The notes beneath the pieces are model-generated. The model saw only the letters and a program-made list of their open reading frames with translations. It searched no databases and was not told the origin of the DNA. From Gammaproteobacteria bacterium (GTDB taxonomy: Bacteria > Pseudomonadota > Gammaproteobacteria > Pseudomonadales > Azotimanducaceae): a DNA stretch of 64,000 nt. Both the position numbers and the translations under genes were made by a program. The DNA lies in the NCBI GenBank assembly GCA_012960535.1, contig DUBB01000050.1, positions 1 to 64,000 of the forward strand. Reading direction: 5' to 3'. Positions 12,681-16,518 of this stretch are shown here, piece by piece (within the stretch, counting starts at the first letter, position 1; every line of letters begins with the position of its first letter).

Positions 12681-13202
12681 ATGATTTATCAGTTGGATGA
12701 AAGAGTACCGGAATTAGCAGAGGGATACTGGATAGCAGAAGGTGCCATTGTTATCGGATCGGTTAGATTGCTAGCTAATTCGAGTGTCTGGTTTAACGCC
12801 GTCATCAGGGGTGATAATGATATTATTACCGTAGGAGAAAATTCGAATATTCAGGATTGTGCTGTTCTGCATACCGATGGTGGTTACCCTTTAACCATTG
12901 GCAGGAATGTCACCGTGGGTCATCAGGTAATGCTGCATGGTTGCTCAGTGGGTAATAACTCCCTGATTGGTATTAATTCGGTGGTGTTGAATGGCGCTCG
13001 AATTGGTAACAATTGCCTGATAGGCGCAAATGCCTTGATTCCTGAGGGTAAGGAAATTCCTGATGGGTCGCTGGTGATGGGCTCGCCTGGCAAGGTCATC
13101 AGGCAGTTGTCAAGCGAGCAGATTAAAGCGGTGGAGATGAGTGCGCTGTATTACGTGGACAACGCACGGCGCTACAGATCAGGGCTAAGCCGGATGACCT
13201 GA
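12681..13202 (+). CDS. Gamma-class carbonic anhydrase-like protein (left-handed beta-helix)
   Basis: 173 residues from the ATG at 12681, which has CGGGGAA upstream; the open frame starts earlier at a TTG without support. Hexapeptide repeats run through most of the chain. The three His ligands of the gamma carbonic anhydrase family are present: His64 (VLHTD), His81 and His86 (VGHQVMLHG). It is of the YrdA/PaaY/CaiE-like type, a trimer; some members have carbonic anhydrase activity and others act as thioesterases or have no known activity. It is immediately downstream of the CoA pyrophosphatase gene (42 bases), so the two may be co-transcribed. Confidence 0.88.
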
Positions 13203-13251
13203 CCCTGGCAGGCGCTAATATCAGCAGTATATTTTCGCCGCCATTGTGGTT

Positions 13252-13257
13252 TATAAT
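13252..13257 (+). promoter_or_regulatory. Possible -10 box of the leuA leader promoter
   Basis: A perfect TATAAT lies 6 bases before the ATG of the putative leader peptide. If used, transcription would start at about 13264, making the leader mRNA nearly leaderless. No good -35 was seen at 16-18 bases upstream (the region reads ATATTT), so the call is tentative. Confidence 0.35.
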
Positions 13258-13263
13258 TTAACG

Positions 13264-13362
13264 ATGATGAACTTTGATTCCTCAACTTTGTCCCCTTTGG
13301 CTTGCTGCATTAGCAGGTCAGCACTGATCTGTGCGCGTCTACTGCTACCACTGCCGTTGTAG
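13264..13362 (+). CDS. Putative leuA leader peptide (Leu-rich, attenuation type)
   Basis: A 32-codon ORF just upstream of leuA. It starts ATG-ATG and ends CGT CTA CTG CTA CCA CTG CCG TTG TAG, so five of the last seven codons are Leu (peptide end RLLLPLPL), two of them the often rare CTA. Ribosome stalling at Leu codons in a leader peptide is the known control of leuABCD in enterobacteria. The stop lies 62 bases before the leuA ATG. Sequences around the Leu codons and stop can fold (GCCG 13353-13356 with CGGC 13364-13367; TAGG 13360-13363 with CCTA 13367-13370). No ribosome site is evident, and no classic T-run terminator follows, so control might act on leuA translation. Inference from composition and position. 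Confidence 0.5.
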   Translation: MMNFDSSTLSPLACCISRSALICARLLLPLPL

Positions 13363-13397
13363 GCGGCCTATACAAACTCCTGCATTGTCTTTTGAAA

Positions 13398-13411
13398 CTC
13401 GTTTCGACGAG
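13398..13411 (+). promoter_or_regulatory. Stem-loop between leader peptide and leuA
   Basis: CTCGT (13398-13402) and ACGAG (13407-13411) pair perfectly around a TTCG tetraloop, a very stable loop type. It lies 13 bases before the leuA ATG at 13425. It is followed by AAAACTTCA, not by a T-run, so it is not a canonical terminator. It could affect leuA translation initiation or be part of an attenuator. The role is inferred. Confidence 0.4.
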
Positions 13412-13424
13412 AAAACTTCAATGA

Positions 13425-15152
13425 ATGAGAATAAGTAATATGAACAGTAATACCAGAGTAAAAGCACCGGAGCAGGCCGTTGATAAAACGATGCCTTTTC
13501 ATAAATACAAGCCGTTTGAGCCTATCGCGTTGAAGGATAGAACCTGGCCCGATCAGGTTATCAGCCAGGCACCACGCTGGTGCAGTGTGGACCTGAGGGA
13601 TGGCAATCAGGCGCTGATAGAACCCATGTCTCCTGCACAAAAACAGCAAATGTATGATCTTCTTGTGGCGCTGGGTTTCAAGGAAATTGAAGTCGGTTTT
13701 CCGGCAGCATCGCAAGCAGATTTTGATTTTGTGCGCAATATTATTGAAGGTGGTTTAATCCCCGTGGGTGTGACTATTCAGGTATTGTGCCAGGCTAGGA
13801 AAGAGCTTATCACCAGAACTTGTGAGGCCGTTCAGGGTGCCCGCGATGTTGTATTCCATTTATATAATTCGACGTCTACTTTGCAGCGTAAAGTTGTTTT
13901 TGGTATGTCCCGCGAGGAAATTATTAAGCTTGCGACCGATGCGACCGCGCTGGTCAAAGAGTACACCCAGCCCTTGGTGGATGCGGGTACCAATGTCATT
14001 CTCGAGTATTCACCGGAGAGCTACACGGCTACAGAAATGGATTTTGCGGTTGAAATCTGCGCCGCCGTGATGGAAGTCTGGCAGCCGACAGCGGAAAACA
14101 AAATCATATTGAATCTGCCATCTACTGTGGAGATGGCTACGCCCAACGTCTATGCAGACCAGATAGAATATTTTATTCGTCAATTACCCGAGCGGCATAC
14201 GGCTGTGATTAGTCTGCACACGCACAATGATCGAGGCACAGGAGTCGCAGCTTCAGAACTGGGTTTGATGGCTGGTGCAGAACGTATTGAGGGTACCTTG
14301 TTTGGTAATGGCGAGCGAACGGGTAATTGCGATCTCATTACAATGGCCATGAATTTGTTTTCTCAGGGCATCGATCCGGAACTTTATCTTTCGGATATGC
14401 CGGGCATTGTGGCGGTTTCTGAAAGTTGTACCAAGATACCCATTCATGTGAGGCAGCCGTATGCGGGCGAATTAGTGTTCACTGCGTTTTCGGGGTCTCA
14501 CCAGGATGCCATTCGTAAAGGCATGTCACATGTGGAATCTGGCTCAGATGGGGCTTGGGAGGTACCTTACCTGCCTATTGATCCGGCTGATGTTGGTGGT
14601 TCTTATCGAGAAACGGTAAGGGTAAACAGTCAATCCGGCAAGGGCGGAGTTGCCTTCATTCTTGAGCATTACTTTGGCGTGCAGTTACCCAGAGAAATCC
14701 TGTTGGAATTGAGTCCGATCATACAGGCCGTATCTGAAGTCGATGGCGGTGAATTAAAACCCGAAACCATTTGGAATACTTTTGTAAACGAATTTGTCGA
14801 AGTCAAAGGTCCCTATCAGTTGTTGGACTATCAAATTCATACCATTGATATGGAGAGCGAAAAGTGTACAGCGCGTCTGGCTGTTTCGGAAAGTGAGGTT
14901 GATATCTCAGGTGAAGGGTCTGGTCCCATTGACGCCTTTGTAGCGGCACTTATTGAAACGCTCAATGAACCCTTGAATGTGGTGGATTATCAGGAATATG
15001 CATTAAATGAGGGCAGCGAGGCTCAAGCGATTAGTATTCTATCGATTTCCGATGATCTGCAACGTAAGTATTATGGTGTAGGTATCAGTAAGAACACCAC
15101 CACGGCGGCATTCAAATCGATTATTTCGGCGATTAACCGCAAATGGCGCTGA
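13425..15152 (+). CDS. leuA: 2-isopropylmalate synthase LeuA, long type
   Basis: 575 residues. First committed step of leucine synthesis: condenses 2-oxoisovalerate with acetyl-CoA. The N-terminal TIM-barrel has the DRE-TIM motif WCSVDLRDGNQAL with the catalytic Arg and the metal Asp, later SLHTHNDRGTG with the two metal His residues and FGNGERTGNCD. The C-terminal part has the regulatory (LeuA dimer) domain that binds leucine, so feedback inhibition is expected. The length and details match the longer type found in Actinobacteria, fungi and some proteobacteria, not the roughly 520-residue E. coli enzyme. ATG at 13440 is an equally good start. leuB, leuC and leuD are not adjacent. Confidence 0.95.
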   Translation: MRISNMNSNTRVKAPEQAVDKTMPFHKYKPFEPIALKDRTWPDQVISQAPRWCSVDLRDGNQALIEPMSPAQKQQMYDLLVALGFKEIEVGFPAASQADFDFVRNIIEGGLIPVGVTIQVLCQARKELITRTCEAVQGARDVVFHLYNSTSTLQRKVVFGMSREEIIKLATDATALVKEYTQPLVDAGTNVILEYSPESYTATEMDFAVEICAAVMEVWQPTAENKIILNLPSTVEMATPNVYADQIEYFIRQLPERHTAVISLHTHNDRGTGVAASELGLMAGAERIEGTLFGNGERTGNCDLITMAMNLFSQGIDPELYLSDMPGIVAVSESCTKIPIHVRQPYAGELVFTAFSGSHQDAIRKGMSHVESGSDGAWEVPYLPIDPADVGGSYRETVRVNSQSGKGGVAFILEHYFGVQLPREILLELSPIIQAVSEVDGGELKPETIWNTFVNEFVEVKGPYQLLDYQIHTIDMESEKCTARLAVSESEVDISGEGSGPIDAFVAALIETLNEPLNVVDYQEYALNEGSEAQAISILSISDDLQRKYYGVGISKNTTTAAFKSIISAINRKWR

Positions 15153-15257: not shown

Positions 15258-16518
15258 TTGTCGGTTGAATTGGGAACTGACGGCATCATTCTGGTAGGCC
15301 GGTTGCTGGCTTTAGCAGTGGCTTTAAGCAGCGCTCTCTTATTTCGAGAGAGACAGCGAAGAGTGCTTGCAGATCGTAAATTTTTGAATTTTTTCATGGA
15401 GCGACTACCGCCATGACTTTACGGGGCGGGGCCGATGGCACAACGGTATTAATAATCAATGTAGTCTGTGAAAGCATGTAGCAGCTGACTGGCGGCCAAT
15501 TGGTCGGCAAGCGCTACAGTAAAATAATTCATTCTCGTAACGATGCGCTTCCTATCCCTGAATTGAATTTCTTACTTCCCAATACTGTCGCCCTGCGGAC
15601 TGTCTCTTCGACAGAAGCACCGCTGATCTTTGCTGGGAAGATATGTAAAACTGTGTTTCTCCACGATGTCACTGACAGGAAAACGCTGGAAGTGGACTTG
15701 CTTGAATCCCGGAATTCCCGGGAAAACCAGATTAAAGATCGAACGCTTTCGCTGGAGGAAAGCAGAAGTCGACTCACCATGGTAGTTGAACATTTTTTAG
15801 AAGGCTATGCATTGTTCGGTACTGATCACAGAATGATACTGGCTAATCGCAGGTTTCGCTCTCTTCTGCCGGAGATAACCCATCTGATTAAAGATGATAT
15901 CGCTGTTATGGAGATTTGGTCAGTGCATTAGCTAAGGGAGCCATTTTATCATTATCTGAAAATGCTGAGGATTTGCTTGAATGGTTTGAATCAAGTACTG
16001 ACAAGAGTATATCAACCATCGAGCTGTCCCTGAGCCATGATCGCTGGGAACATTGTACAATCAAGAATCTGCCAACTGGTTTTCAGATAATCACCCTGAC
16101 TGAGGTTACTGAATTGAGACTGGCGGTTGAAGCAGCAGAGCAAGCAACGGAACAGGTAAGTTAACAGAGTAACGAAAGCGTGCCAGACCGGGTCCTGGAT
16201 ACTTCTTCTCTCAGCGCTATTTTTGGCGACGATGAGCAGACCATTAAAGAACTTATAGAGGAGTTTATAGTATCTTCTGAGAAAACCATGACTGACCTGA
16301 GCGCGGCTGTTGATCAGGAATCTGCAGCCCAGGTTAAATCCTTGGCGCATAAATTAAAGTCATCCGCACGAACGGTGGGTGCTCATGTTCTTGCGGATCT
16401 GTGCGAGGCGCTTGAGGCAGCTGGTAAGGAAAAGAATTGGATAAAAATAAACGAAGCTGGACCCGCCGCTCTCATCGCTTTTAGTCATATTAGGGATAGA
16501 ATTCAAACAGGCCAGTGA
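15258..16518 (+). pseudogene. Decayed hybrid histidine kinase: membrane helix, PAS domains and HPt remain, kinase core missing
   Basis: Four pieces in two frames read as one former sensor protein. 15258-15416 encodes a TTG-started membrane helix (GRLLALAVALSSALLF) and stops. From 15413 the +2 frame begins a PAS domain (VLIINVVCESM), is cut by TAG at 15479 and continues in frame with QLTGGQLVGKRYSKIIH, then HDVTDRKTLE and a second PAS (VVEHFLEGYALFGTDHRMILANR). It ends at 15931. Near 15912-15925 the frame shifts: LVSALAKGAILSLSENAEDLL up to a TAA at 16162. After this, the same frame encodes an HPt domain (16180-16518) with HKLKSSARTVGA. The HisKA, ATPase and receiver domains expected between AEQATEQ and the HPt are absent. 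A solitary HPt protein could still be made from GTG 16180. Confidence 0.75.

Follow-up and report, generated by a model that had tools for sequence, protein, structure and literature searches.

The leuA locus and its leucine-rich leader

The question raised by this locus is whether a short leucine-rich open reading frame (ORF) lying directly before leuA serves as a leader for leucine-responsive control of the gene and, if so, by which route the signal would reach leuA. Attenuation of leuABCD is classical in enterobacteria, and the original prediction for this DNA had applied the same logic here. The window, i.e. the whole stretch of DNA analysed, consists of 64,000 nt from a Gammaproteobacteria bacterium of the Azotimanducaceae (GCA_012960535.1, contig DUBB01000050.1, positions 1-64,000, forward strand). 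The following features were assigned in and around the leader:

13205..13233, + strand: predicted promoter CTGGCA-17-TATATT (9 of 12 consensus matches; common to relatives)
13264..13362, + strand: leader peptide ORF, 32 codons, Leu-rich end LLLPLPL (ATG 13264, TAG 13360-13362)
13339..13353, + strand: candidate control codons CTA CTG CTA CCA CTG (from Leu enrichment in relatives)
13440..15152, + strand: leuA, 2-isopropylmalate synthase of the leuA_yeast type (TIGR00970; start by homology, in-frame ATG 13425 possible)

The leuA product scored 739.2 bits against TIGR00970 (cut-off 697.4). ATG 13440, which is preceded by GAG at 13427-13429, is more likely to be the start than ATG 13425, because it is homologous to the starts in relatives. 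The spacing of 62 bases given in the original prediction is true of the distance from the leader stop to ATG 13425, but becomes 77 nt when the favoured start is used. In the window, leuBCD do not directly follow leuA. On inspection by eye, two ORFs 3' of leuA, 15500-15931 and 16180-16518, resemble parts of a sensor kinase that has an Hpt-like end, and they are possibly one broken gene.

The leader ORF, from ATG 13264 to TAG 13360-13362, is MMNFDSSTLSPLACCISRSALICARLLLPLPL. Its final seven codons are CTA CTG CTA CCA CTG CCG TTG, and the 32-codon ORF and its five Leu codons in the last seven, two of them CTA, are all present in the sequence as originally described. On both strands of the 64-kb window, it is the sole ORF that has 20 or more codons and five or more Leu among the last seven, and an ORF of this kind arose in 2 of 2000 dinucleotide shuffles of 13203-13439.

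Conservation of the leader in related genomes

LeuA matches were obtained for 57 of 58 relatives (E <=0.001) and, in a sample of 293 genomes across the order, for 220 (E <=1e-100). In the family of the window, 41 leuA loci were examined, and 40 were readable, since L031 has no upstream sequence. A Leu-rich ORF precedes leuA at 39 of the 40 readable loci, as judged from ORF listings and by eye, and these ORFs end at or just past a small hairpin in front of leuA. The leader frame crosses the hairpin in L027, L034, L036, L112 and L113, with the stop codon beyond it, and at L115 no Leu leader was found before leuA. In the window's genus, 15 genomes were searched, and the leader is present in all 14 with LeuA. 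Comparing the upstream regions of relatives, as the original prediction had proposed, revealed Leu codons kept among otherwise variable residues, and the finding that was to speak against the idea, a Leu-rich ORF that is not conserved, was not encountered. One assembly contains two near-identical leuA copies, both preceded by the leader (G011:C125 and G011:C32; L003 and L032), perhaps because two strains were binned together.

Two types of leader are distinguished here, the near type in the window's clade and the far type in its sister clade. The 48 near leaders are distinct sequences but related, and counts of 48 are thus not 48 independent cases; far-type counts refer to 25 leaders, with the mis-centred L104 left out. 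In the near type, the share of Leu is 52% in codons -12 to -3 compared with 21% in codons -25 to -13 (48 leaders). The N-termini vary between relatives, and the Leu run is kept while its synonymous codons change. In L019, the N-terminal part, upstream of the core described below, contains AMYIR repeated several times, in keeping with little constraint on this end of the peptide.

Alternatively, a protein or small molecule could bind the region as a structured 5' UTR in which the ORF is incidental, and the core is indeed more conserved as RNA than the surrounding peptide. However, in 48/48 near leaders no stop interrupts the leader frame over at least the 27 codons ahead of the core, whereas the other two frames are open for 20 codons in 32/48 and 18/48; the corresponding figures for 20 codons in the far type are 24/25 for the leader frame and 19/25 and 11/25 for the others. 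Leu is kept via different codons, and the sister clade retains the Leu run with a core unlike that of the near type. In the closest group, substitutions also favour third codon positions, though mildly (9, against 5 and 4 at the others), with 5 synonymous and 8 changed codons. A purely structural role is considered highly improbable. The leader probably senses leucine.

The promoter was also compared between relatives. The perfect TATAAT (13252-13257) six bases 5' of the leader ATG is present as originally reported and is kept in L003, L032 and L004. The nearly leaderless mRNA deduced from it found no support, because the promoter common to relatives lies further upstream (13205-13233), and the start of transcription is likely about 13240. 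The pattern YTGNCD-17-TATWNT was found 147-189 nt before the core in 20/48 near leaders (shuffled mean 0.08) and 81-145 nt before it in 9/25 far leaders (shuffled mean 0.04). A leaderless transcript from TATAAT 13252 was set aside as the main model; it is possible for the window, L003, L032 and L004.

A conserved RNA core at the stop codon

Alignment of the near leaders defined further features, given here with their positions in the window:

13345..13351, + strand: element 1, CTACCAC (CTACGAC in most relatives), predicted from folding to be the partner of element 2
13352..13368, + strand: conserved core TGCCGTTGTAGGCGGCC, spanning the last codons, the stop codon and bases beyond (by conservation)
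13358..13363, + strand: element 2, UGUAGG, holding the stop codon UAG and complementary to element 3
13379..13384, + strand: element 3, CCUGCA (CCURC in relatives; CCTRC in 48/48 near leaders)
13398..13411, + strand: second hairpin CTCGT-TTCG-ACGAG (no T-run after it; sequence not conserved)

The near-type core over the last codons and the stop codon is UGCCGUUGUAGGCGGCC. Its exact 18-base form, CTGCCGTTGTAGGCGGCC, occurs once in the window's genome. With up to three mismatches, the core was found at 8 places in this genome, exact only at leuA, and the reversed pattern at 7. The next best match (G000:C42:128723-128740, L053) has two mismatches. In L009 (G004), of the window's genus, one base of the core is changed.

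An exact scan of genome contigs for CTRCNACTGCCGNNGTAGNCGGC returned 51 stretches. In 44 of these, leuA follows on the same strand after 52-275 nt, and in L079 the leader is present and the sequence ends before the expected leuA position; no leuA was found near the remaining six (L065, L073, L074, L082, L090 and L105). The 45 stretches with the leader are labelled as uncultured Pseudomonadales, Gammaproteobacteria or Proteobacteria, one of the 45 (L083) as K189A clade. Since this pattern catches only leaders that keep the core, the scan is no measure of how widespread such leaders are. The pattern ACTGCCRNNGTAGNYGGC matched exactly in 72/206 family genomes, part of which is due to chance, given that the reversed control matched in 23/206 (hand count), and the near-type core was counted by hand in 47 genomes. 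For the short loci L190 and L191, a local search returned no LeuA.

At the codon level, position -5 is Leu in 48/48 near leaders (CTA in 47), position -4 is Arg in 44/48, and positions -2 and -1 are CCG TTG in 48/48. This raises the alternative that the conserved end L-R-L-P-L/A halts the ribosome in response to leucine itself, for which TnaC is the model of nascent-peptide arrest. The Arg at -4 is encoded through two codon families (CGA 32, AGA 12), Pro at -2 is invariant, and an L-R-L run recurs in the leaders of L051, L119, L139 and L143 from other families of the order, all of which would suit a peptide signal. However, the third positions of codons -2 and -1 are also invariant, pointing to RNA; far leaders have Arg (14/25) or Leu (11/25) at codon -4 and Ala, Val or Gly at codon -1; and the window itself, untypical among near leaders, has CCA (Pro) at -4. 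Arrest by the peptide is thus regarded as improbable.

As RNA, the region of the core is predicted to have two alternative pairings. Element 2 could pair with element 1, with one mismatch in the window, where the CCA codon, like AGA at codon -4 in 12/48 near leaders, introduces it. Alternatively, GUAGG of the core at the stop codon is complementary to CCURC of element 3, the A or G of which both pair with U. CCTRC lies 8-11 nt past the core in 48/48 near leaders, compared with a mean of 1.9 and a maximum of 7 in shuffles of the 46 rows without N. As the core hardly varies, there is little covariation behind either the 1:2 or the 2:3 pairing.

Predicted effects of ribosome position

The near leaders were folded with a ribosome either stalled or at the stop codon; L158, L190 and L200 contain N bases, and 45 of the 48 leaders entered the stall-codon folds. 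A stall on codon -5 freed UGUAGG, which then paired downstream with a mean probability of 0.85 (32 near leaders) or 0.75 (45). Folding gave a drop of more than 0.2 from the stop-codon state to the stalled state in 34/45. The second hairpin hardly changed between the two states, with values of 0.42 and 0.45 (45 near leaders). In these folds it stays in place when 2:3 pairing forms, so there is no sign of a classical terminator/antiterminator switch, and the idea that 2:3 pairing removes a terminator formed by this hairpin found no support.

The original prediction drew attention to a TTCG-loop hairpin just before leuA. The hairpin is present in the window, but it does not qualify as the key conserved part, since its stem and loop are already different in L004 (CTCGTCTTAGCGAG), and the window's own second-hairpin stretch folds no better than shuffles (z +0.2). 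The UUCG hairpin was rejected as a conserved part on the grounds of these changes. Hairpins near this site are common in near leaders, where the stretch has a mean z of -0.98 (s.e. 0.16), with 24 values below -1, among the 46 near leaders without N. The window's leader region as a whole also folds no better than shuffles (z -0.76).

The lack of a canonical terminator, also pointed out originally, was upheld for most of the window's clade. Terminator-like sequences were found in 3/33 near leaders (shuffled mean 0.45), a clear exception being L111 (leader same as L081), which has a U-run after the second hairpin. Between the leader and leuA of the window, there is no intrinsic terminator with a U-run, and the lone predicted site, 13237-13250, is upstream of the leader.

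With no T-run terminator in the window, the original prediction had turned to control of leuA translation, in which the state of the leader opens or hides the leuA ribosome-binding site, the principle proposed for the LEU element of Actinobacteria. The missing U-run terminator in most of the clade and the distance of just 77 nt from leader stop to leuA start in the window would fit this explanation, and terminator-less Leu leaders are known in Actinobacteria (PMC1262725). However, the predicted access of the leuA start is the same in the stalled and stop-codon states, namely 0.51 and 0.51 in 32 near leaders and 0.41 and 0.42 in 26 far leaders (including the mis-centred L104), and the distance from the motif to leuA varies widely (52-275 nt). 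Hiding of the ribosome-binding site is thus unsupported, predicted access being equal in both ribosome states, and translational control is considered unlikely. The leucine leader peptide before leuA, on which the original prediction was built, is supported.

Since second hairpin and leuA start access hardly change, the switch seems instead to open or close the pyrimidine-rich stretch past the stop codon. In the near type, this stretch is not strongly C-rich: the base content is 29% C and 13% G at +17 to +45, and 21% C and 19% G at +60 to +100, figures that describe the near leaders by themselves.

In the window, folding depends on the stalled codon. A stall on codon -6 gives the expected 2:3 pairing of UGUAGG with CCUGCA, whereas with a stall on -5 UGUAGG pairs with the nearer CCUAUA, and with a stall on -7 another hairpin forms. 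The window is an untypical member, and its assignment as a putative attenuator leans on its relatives. A search with 4227 Rfam families returned no match at the gathering score in the window or nine related loci, and none up to E 10 at 13150-13500.

The far type in the sister clade

The 25 far leaders share a hairpin resembling GCCGGC-GUA-GCCGGC, and the stop codon falls within the loop or directly behind it. In L026, a G-C pair of this hairpin is replaced by a compensated A-U pair. The tract after this first hairpin is 47% U and 4% G, and 11/25 are terminator-like at the stop hairpin by a loose test (shuffled mean 0.85). A second hairpin, mostly GGGC-GCCC, was found by pattern in 23/25 (shuffled mean 1.1), and the stretch behind it (+45 to +75) is 40% C and 14% G, again for these leaders by themselves.

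Proposed mechanism

We propose that the leader is probably part of a leucine-responsive, ribosome-mediated attenuator of leuA. Transcription would begin past 13233, and the leader peptide would be translated, as its conservation suggests. When Leu-tRNA is ample, the ribosome would clear the Leu run and leave at UAG 13360; the RNA around the stop codon would then fold on itself, the pyrimidine-rich stretch downstream would be open, and leuA transcription would end before the gene or early within it. When Leu-tRNA is scarce, a ribosome halted on the last Leu codons would cover element 1 and free UGUAGG (13358-13363), and the predicted pairing of the latter with CCURC (13379-13384) would close the stretch and allow leuA to be expressed. 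The first Leu codons of the run are too far upstream for a ribosome stalled there to cover element 1. In the far type, a stalled ribosome would prevent formation of the GC hairpin around the stop codon, behind which the U-rich tract lies.

Termination of transcription as the output is given an even chance. Premature termination would most likely be Rho-dependent in the window's clade and either Rho- or weakly hairpin-dependent in the sister clade, Rho being the simplest agent where there is no U-run. A more specific version is put forward tentatively: a terminator-free leucine attenuator, in which a finished ribosome would leave the CCURC stretch open for Rho, and a stalled ribosome, via closure of that stretch by UGUAGG, would shield leuA from Rho, with the sister clade placing the stop codon in the loop of a regulatory hairpin and the family using RNA in place of an Lrp-like regulator.

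Comparison with known systems

Like the leu attenuator of Enterobacteria and Shewanella, which in Shewanella comprises a terminator, an antiterminator and an anti-antiterminator (PMC2659441), the system described here has a Leu-rich leader just before leuA and predicted alternative RNA structures, and ribosome stalling would be the sensor. It differs in that most of the window's clade has no U-run terminator, the putative switch strand includes the stop codon, and leuA belongs to the leuA_yeast type and, in the window, is not directly followed by leuBCD. Measured against the classical leu attenuator, the Leu-rich ORF is present and the U-run terminator is not; the 1:2 and 2:3 alternatives are predicted, with a second hairpin that is not displaced in folding.

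For the terminator-less leaders of Actinobacteria, pairing of the Leu run with the ribosome-binding site of leuA has been proposed, along with a pseudoknot (PMC1262725). The Leu leader before leuA and the lack of an obvious terminator are shared with this LEU element as outlined there, but access of the leuA ribosome-binding site is here predicted to be independent of ribosome state. The ilvB-OMG motif comprises ORFs upstream of ilvB rich in branched-chain residues and threonine (PMC10272879). The leader resembles these in its richness in branched-chain residues and its place upstream of a gene for their biosynthesis, and differs in that the gene is leuA rather than ilvB and in that Leu stands in place of threonine and several branched-chain residues. 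By eye, no clear branched-chain leader is seen within 500 nt upstream of ilvB in the window's genome.

Leader-peptide attenuators that depend on Rho are known, namely tnaC and mgtA/mgtCBR. As in these, the leader ORF would decide early termination without a U-run terminator; unlike the leuA leader, they do not serve biosynthetic leucine control, and Rho dependence here is hypothetical. Most members lack the usual terminator, which makes the family well suited to the question of whether leader peptides of biosynthetic genes can work via Rho. Surveys based on terminators miss Rho-dependent cases (PMC2965389).

In a truA mutant of Pseudomonas putida, LeuA is 4.2-fold up (PMC7822408, Table 1). The accessible part of that paper draws no link to a leader, and this tRNA-modification effect could hint at leader control of leuA in P. 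putida too. A literature search, with subscription papers mostly outside it, returned no title or abstract describing the present leuA leader. The principle is classical, but this RNA design without the usual terminator seems undescribed. The core, the missing terminator and the way in which control codons, stop codon and switch strand overlap make it a new version of a known control, which would extend amino-acid attenuation in a compact form to a family of uncultured Pseudomonadales.

Leader and Lrp-like gene as possible alternatives at leuA

Outside the family, leuA upstream regions were compared over up to 450 nt. A divergent stretch similar to an ORF at L049, which we take from its sequence to be Lrp/AsnC-like, was found in 31/49 leuA upstream regions from other families of the order; L049, L130 and L135 are examples with such a divergent gene beside leuA. 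At the 41 leuA loci of the window's family, one of which (L031) has no upstream sequence, no Lrp-like divergent neighbour was found.

Leu leaders occur sporadically in the order outside the family, in L051, L119, L139 and L143, with L122 doubtful, and none of them has an Lrp-like neighbour. The contrast in Lrp-like neighbours between the family and the rest of the order suggests a swap between control of leuA by a protein (Lrp-like) and by a leader. Within one order, leuA would be accompanied in some lineages by a divergent Lrp-like gene and in others by a leader peptide, and the swap could be tested on a tree. In L051, L119 and L139, from other families of the order, two Leu-rich leader ORFs lie in tandem before leuA.
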